A DNA stretch of 64,000 nt from Prochlorococcus sp. AG-418-G23 (GTDB taxonomy: Bacteria; Cyanobacteriota; Cyanobacteriia; PCC-6307; Cyanobiaceae), in the NCBI GenBank assembly GCA_003214195.1, contig QCLY01000001.1, forward strand, positions 1-64,000. The letters are read 5' to 3'. Positions 9,024-37,518 of the stretch are shown piece by piece. The notes under the pieces were generated by a model. It saw only the letters and a list, made by a program, of their open reading frames with translations. It was not told the origin of the DNA and made no database searches. A program made the translations under genes and the position numbers. Position 1 is the stretch's first letter, and every line of letters starts with the position of its first letter.

Positions 9024-9125
9024 TTATCTCAAGTAACTAGACCCTCTATATGTAAGCTTTACTGTTTTCTCTTCTTGTTTCTTACAATATACAAATGACT
9101 TGCCATTAAAATACATGTTAACCAT
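9024..9125 (-). CDS. Small YRG-motif peptide (33 aa), possibly DUF4278-like
   Basis: ATG 9125 (or the second ATG at 9116) to TAA 9024. The sequence is VYCKKQEEKTVKLTYRGSSY near the C-terminus. The KLTYRGxxY element recalls the DUF4278 family of small cyanobacterial proteins, which includes the PII-binding regulator PirA; that link rests on a short motif only. The gene starts 10 nt after a T-run that ends a terminator-like hairpin on the same strand, so it looks like the target of the structured leader at 9136-9223. Confidence 0.45.
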   Translation of the reverse strand: MVNMYFNGKSFVYCKKQEEKTVKLTYRGSSYLR

Positions 9126-9135
9126 AATGCAGTTC

Positions 9136-9223
9136 CTAAAAATGCTCAAGTCCCCGTCCTATGACTTGAGTCGTACTGCGGTCTATCAGGTGGTAGATCG
9201 GACGATTATGTAGTGTTTACTAC
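9136..9223 (-). ncRNA. Candidate structured leader RNA or small RNA (about 90 nt)
   Basis: On the minus strand three hairpins follow a promoter. H1: TGTAGT/ACTACA (9224-9219 with 9214-9209). H2: CGATCTA/TAGACCG (9200-9194 with 9185-9179), enclosed by TCGT/ACGA (9205-9202 with 9174-9171). H3: CTCAAGT/ACTTGAG (9170-9164 with 9151-9145), followed by CATTTTTAG. CGTCC beside H2 can also pair with GGACG in the H3 loop, a possible pseudoknot. The segment is near 50% GC in a roughly 25% GC background. It may be a free small RNA or an attenuating leader for the YRG peptide gene. No known class was recognised; it does not fit the glutamine riboswitch layout. Confidence 0.55.
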
Positions 9224-9229
9224 AATTTA

Positions 9230-9258
9230 TTTGTAGATTATTTGCACTTAACTGTCAA
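9230..9258 (-). promoter_or_regulatory. Sigma-70-type promoter for the structured RNA
   Basis: Read on the minus strand, a perfect -35 TTGACA (9258-9253) is followed after exactly 17 nt by TACAAA (9235-9230), a 4/6 match to TATAAT. Transcription would start near 9223, at the first hairpin of the candidate RNA. Confidence 0.55.
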
Positions 9259-37372: not shown

Positions 37373-37432
37373 TTAATACTTGTGATAATCTTTGTTGTCA
37401 TACACGCTTGGACATCCTTTCTTTTAAGAATG

Positions 37433-37451
37433 GGTCTGATATTTTCAGACC
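37433..37451 (-). promoter_or_regulatory. Hairpin between subunit a and subunit c genes
   Basis: GGTCTGA and TCAGACC form a perfect 7-bp stem around TATTT. On the minus strand no long T-run follows, so it is not a full terminator. A stabilising or processing hairpin ahead of atpE would help supply the many c subunits needed per complex. That role is an inference from position. Confidence 0.5.
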
Positions 37452-37518
37452 TACGCGATTAGATATTTTGCCAGATCATAGACCCTTTGTAAAAGCGTCT
37501 GAATGTATTAGAAGAAAG

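Follow-up and report, generated by a model that had tools for sequence, protein, structure and literature searches.

Organization of the locus

The window (the whole 64,000-nt stretch of Prochlorococcus sp. AG-418-G23 DNA that was analysed) carries on its minus strand a promoter, a structured leader and a 33-aa open reading frame (Table 1). Together they are a homologue of Yfr6 and therefore already known, an identity drawn from the anatomy and the published description rather than from comparison with the MED4 sequence. Yfr6 was published in 2005 as an RNA of 244 nt in MED4 and 239 nt in SS120 (Axmann 2005, PMC1242208). A conserved 33-aa frame begins at its nt 97, and nitrogen depletion lowers the amount of Yfr6 RNA in MED4 (PMC1242208). 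In 2010 the 5' portion was identified as a Downstream-peptide RNA (PMC2864571). The window locus corresponds to this anatomy, with a 33-aa frame at about nt 97 behind the same leader.

Table 1. Positions of the Yfr6 features in the window
Feature	Position	Strand	Basis or remark
Promoter	9230-9258	minus	TTGACA 9258-9253, 17-nt spacer, TACAAA 9235-9230; from sequence
5' hairpin GUAGU-AAAC-ACUAC	9210-9223	minus	Found in all aligned orthologues
Glutamine-II aptamer (RF01704)	9145-9207	minus	Whole-model Rfam match; PK and P2 pair counts in 126 aptamers
PK 5' strand, CGUCC	9204-9200	minus	
PK 3' strand, GGACG	9159-9155	minus	
P1	about 9199-9181	minus	
Linker CGCAGU	from 9180	minus	
P2 arms CUCAAGUC/GACUUGAG	3' arm ends 9145	minus	
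CATTTTT, terminator T-run of the initial annotation	9138-9144	minus	Most likely no terminator
Shine-Dalgarno AGGA (9137-9134) and spacer ACUGCAUU	9126-9137	minus	Alignment, folding and swap test (suggestive only)
33-aa Yfr6 peptide gene, MVNMYFNGKSFVYCKKQEEKTVKLTYRGSSYLR	9024-9125	minus	Frame and length kept in orthologues; pN/pS
Candidate antisense promoter, -10 TATATGT (9047-9053), start about 9060	9047-9060	plus	Inferred Yfr14 homologue

Homologues of the 341-nt stretch were found in 25 of 60 relatives within the genus (own genome included), mostly with 79-87% identity. In the alignment of orthologues, the promoter, 5' hairpin, aptamer, Shine-Dalgarno sequence and frame were all conserved, so that the hairpins and the peptide frame, whose conservation the initial annotation had named as a check, are kept in relatives. 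Column agreement was about 91-98% over promoter, aptamer, Shine-Dalgarno sequence and frame (97.8% mean in the aptamer) and dropped on both flanks (77% ahead of the promoter, 74% beyond the stop codon).

The promoter described in the initial annotation (TTGACA and TACAAA separated by 17 nt) was present. Its -35 element TTGACA is invariant across 26 aligned orthologues. The -10 element is mostly TATAAA among relatives, and the TACAAA of the window copy is weaker. A TATA element likewise lies ahead of the mapped transcript start of MED4 Yfr6 (PMC1242208). By analogy with MED4, where nt 97 is the ATG, the transcript would start at about 9221-9223, at or near the 5' hairpin. This hairpin, whose closing pair occurs in U-A, U-G and C-G forms among the orthologues, forms with P1 and P2 the three hairpins that had been noticed on this strand.

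The promoter spacer of Yfr6 orthologues contains a conserved inverted repeat between -35 and -10, AAGTA-N4-TACTT or in some cases GAGTA-N4-TACTC. It has an operator-like look and is degenerate in the window (9249-9236, minus). The same 14-mer lies upstream of an open reading frame that by eye is DoxX-like at six loci (L189, L191, L192, L197, L201 and L203). We rejected the repeat as a shared operator: a reversed control pattern also occurs up to once per genome, so the recurrence may be chance.

The leader is a glutamine-II aptamer

When the whole window was searched with cmscan against Rfam 15, the leader matched RF01704, the glutamine-II class formerly known as the Downstream-peptide motif. 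The match (9207-9145, minus) spans model positions 1-60 of 60 and scores 54.9 bits where the cut-off is 33, with an E-value of 1.5e-10 calculated over both strands of the window and all families. The initial annotation had proposed a compact pseudoknotted riboswitch before a YRG peptide gene, with glutamine riboswitches as a parallel, and had stated that the fold did not match the glutamine class. The match bears out the riboswitch and the parallel, the leader itself being RF01704, and contradicts the last statement. The riboswitch spotted by eye was thus true and its class misjudged, and the suggestion of a new regulator falls, because the RNA class and the locus are both known.

The CGUCC/GGACG pairing suspected as a pseudoknot is the PK helix of the glutamine-II class. 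Using the aptamer numbering and glutamine contacts of the crystal-structure paper (structure 6QN3, PMC6698751), we found all glutamine-contact nucleotides (C1 at 9204, G2 at 9203, G18 at 9179, C39 at 9156 and G40 at 9155) and also the core nucleotides C19 (9178), A33 (9162), A38 (9157), G41 (9154) and G42 (9153). Among 126 aptamers, the PK pairs were kept in all 126 at four positions and in 125 at the fifth. At pair 4, 105 of them have T-A and 21 have C-G, and P2 pairs 2-8 were kept in at least 95 of 96 aptamers, so that pair-preserving changes back PK and P2. Thermodynamic folding alone gave no signal for the leader (z -1.10). We also considered the glutamine-I class and rejected it, since a covariance-model search of the whole genome gave no match to RF01739.

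The glutamine-II class binds glutamine, as described in a review (PMC6316151) and in the crystal-structure paper, where the construct has a Kd of 190 uM (PMC6698751). By analogy with the members for which binding is published, the window aptamer is most likely an L-glutamine sensor.

Such a riboswitch before a 33-aa peptide gene is an ordinary find for Prochlorococcus. RF01704 occurs in 99 of 101 sampled genomes of the genus, most of them with several copies, and in 42 of 61 genomes at the family level; the own genome has three copies. Another copy of the own genome (L004) and the loci L157-L168 precede a different peptide of about 54-56 aa (MNNLLQIREKIKRANRLYEAQ...). This peptide matches nothing in Pfam, and inspection by eye showed no clear Shine-Dalgarno sequence. 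At four further loci (L077, L079, L080 and L169), an ATG follows P2 by only about 7-8 nt; the protein that it opens (MKFSHITIMS...) is membrane-like, which is unusual among glutamine-II targets. Elsewhere in the window, an ATPC RNA motif (RF01067) was found at 37403-37493 (minus) with 93.5 bits. Phage records contained no DNA similar to the Yfr6 locus.

The 33-aa peptide

The YRG frame noticed in the initial annotation is a real gene by its pattern of change. In all 25 full-length orthologues the frame has 33 codons and an intact stop, variable sites fall 9, 11 and 26 on the first, second and third codon positions, and pN/pS is 0.18. Judged from this alignment, the peptide is under purifying selection and its frame bears the mark of translation.

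The window peptide had no match in Pfam and NCBIfam scans, staying below the DUF4278 (PF14105) cut-off of 25.3 bits, and a divergent Yfr6-type peptide reached 14.1 bits against this model. The paralogous peptides behind other riboswitch copies mostly contain two or three YRG motifs (MTLTYRGQKY...LTYRGKQY), and the three that were scanned scored 29-34 bits, all above the cut-off. On visual inspection the Yfr6 peptide resembles a two-repeat DUF4278-like protein, although it is not a filed member of the family. It probably acts in nitrogen metabolism as a small regulator of the DUF4278-like kind. The parallel with PirA drawn in the initial annotation is weak, PirA being completely absent from marine picocyanobacteria according to the PirA paper.

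Yfr6 was put forward in 2005 and 2008 as mainly a regulatory small RNA, either a dual-function RNA like RNAIII or the toxin partner of the antisense RNA Yfr14 in a toxin-antitoxin pair (PMC1242208, PMC2518516). In MED4, Yfr14 starts opposite Yfr6 nt 162 (PMC1242208, PMC2518516), which maps to about 9060 in the window, and a -10-like site lies at the matching place, in agreement with this proposal. However, the conservation is accounted for by aptamer, start region and frame and declines after the stop. Other loci with the same riboswitch have paralogous peptides, most with a YRG motif, a pattern more in keeping with a family of regulated peptides than with a small RNA on its own. We therefore regard a mainly regulatory small RNA as improbable and Yfr6 as the mRNA of a riboswitch-controlled peptide. 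The TATATGT of the candidate antisense promoter reads TATAAGT in most relatives. It is antisense to the TYR codons, where coding sequence and possible antisense promoter overlap.

Control is most likely translational

The initial annotation read the last hairpin and the CATTTTT behind it as the terminator of a possible attenuation-type regulator. The T-run was present, 12 nt rather than 10 nt before the ATG, and in the window P2 is indeed an 8-pair hairpin followed by CAUUUUU, as an intrinsic terminator under aptamer control would require. However, the hairpin with its U-run is not conserved: none of the other aligned orthologues has the T-run, and the intact ones read CAAGTTC or similar at this position. 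An exact-pattern search of 266 genomes of the genus found the T-run version in only three others; two of these were inspected, and both hold degenerate second copies in which aptamer and frame are broken. This absence from intact orthologues and recurrence in decayed copies makes attenuation by termination unlikely. Moreover, P2 belongs to the ligand-bound aptamer, so that the ligand would favour the terminator, contrary to the published ON direction, and the MED4 and SS120 transcripts extend through the frame (PMC1242208). We rejected the attenuator, to which we give hardly any chance. Decayed second Yfr6 copies, with a broken aptamer core and a disrupted frame, were seen at L060, L061 and L062 (genomes G015, G012 and G010); the first two retain the upstream AAGTATAAATACTT and the T-run.

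In the orthologues, an almost invariant CTGCAT and the Shine-Dalgarno sequence (AGGA in the window copy, AGGAG in relatives) occupy the interval from P2 to the ATG. This arrangement and the unconserved T-run agree with translational control, which is thought probable for the glutamine-II class (PMC6698751). According to the review, glutamine raises expression through the type 2 glutamine riboswitch in Prochlorococcus (PMC6316151), and at the window leader glutamine most likely turns translation ON.

A candidate for the OFF state lies in the linker. Its GCAG(U) is complementary over 4-5 bases to (R)CUGC beside the Shine-Dalgarno sequence in 20 of 21 Yfr6-type leaders, and the minimum-energy folds of most of these leaders contain a linker helix around an intact P2. 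Across 41 leader clusters, pairing between linker and leader exceeded that in shuffled leaders (mean 4.70 versus 3.86 expected pairs; Wilcoxon P 0.007) and in swapped leaders (3.65 versus 3.13; permutation P 0.022, paired Wilcoxon P 0.078), with P values that are optimistic because the clusters are related. The helix is short, with 4-5 pairs, and is not found in every copy (the L148, L057 and L002 types are weak). Given this relatedness, and since the pairing is lacking in several clusters, we regard the evidence for the helix as suggestive. It fits the published account, in which P1 and P2 are already formed without ligand, the PK is loose, and the PK is predicted to compete with a structure covering the ribosome site (PMC6698751).

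With plentiful nitrogen, glutamine would sit in the PK groove and lock the linker strand CGCAGU into the pseudoknot, leaving the Shine-Dalgarno sequence exposed and translation ON. At low glutamine, the PK would loosen while P2 remains folded, and the linker GCAGU could base-pair with the ACUGC that lies just downstream of the Shine-Dalgarno sequence. The resulting helix, enclosing P2, would hinder initiation (OFF).

A base-triple change marks Yfr6-type aptamers

Of the 126 distinct aptamers, 105 have U, A and G at positions 4, 37 and 35, and the other 21 have C, G and A there. A YFNGK/R-type peptide follows each of the 21 C/G/A aptamers and no aptamer of the U/A/G kind. In 6QN3 these positions form the G35 > A37:U4 triple, which makes no direct contact with glutamine (PMC6698751). 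The coordinated C4:G37/A35 subclass mark is a small new observation. Since the 21 aptamers are related, the three-base change may be one ancient coordinated event.

Such a strict division (21 of 21 versus 105 of 105) could mean that the Yfr6-type aptamer has moved to another ligand or to a clearly different affinity. However, the altered triple does not touch glutamine, every direct contact is unchanged, and the change is coordinated, so that the triple may be kept. A shift of ligand or affinity is thus very unlikely, and we retain glutamine as the predicted ligand. We tentatively suggest, as a possibility that is itself rather unlikely, that the Yfr6 type is a distinct glutamine-II subclass, defined by the base-triple change, an invariable YFNGK-type peptide, the linker:Shine-Dalgarno OFF state and a glutamine threshold of its own relative to paralogous riboswitches in the same cell.

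Relation to known systems

Taken together, we are highly confident that the window contains a Yfr6 locus in which a sigma-70-type promoter drives a short mRNA with a glutamine-II aptamer as its 5' UTR and the 33-aa peptide as its only frame, with glutamine turning translation ON and the linker helix as the putative OFF state. Although catalogued as non-coding and as a possible toxin-antitoxin component, Yfr6 is better read as a glutamine-switched peptide mRNA. The remaining novelty is small: the subclass mark and the linker:Shine-Dalgarno helix, a concrete candidate for the expression platform of glutamine-II riboswitches.

The window copy shares with Yfr6 of MED4 and SS120 (PMC1242208; Steglich 2008, PMC2518516) a frame of the same length, 33 aa, that opens roughly 97 nt from the transcript start, a TATA-type -10 element before the start, the leader type and a variable genomic location. 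It differs in having AGGA where Yfr6 has AGGAG and in its degenerate promoter inverted repeat. With the glutamine-II structure 6QN3 (RF01704), it has in common P1, PK, P2, the linker, the long-range C19:G41 pair and the glutamine contacts, whereas C4:G37 with A35, common to all Yfr6-type members, replaces U4:A37 with G35. The peptide shares the LTYRG.SY motif with the small DUF4278 (PF14105) proteins encoded behind glutamine riboswitches; unlike the two-YRG paralogues, it carries YFNGKSF at the position of the first YRG, and its Pfam score, where there is one, falls short of the cut-off.
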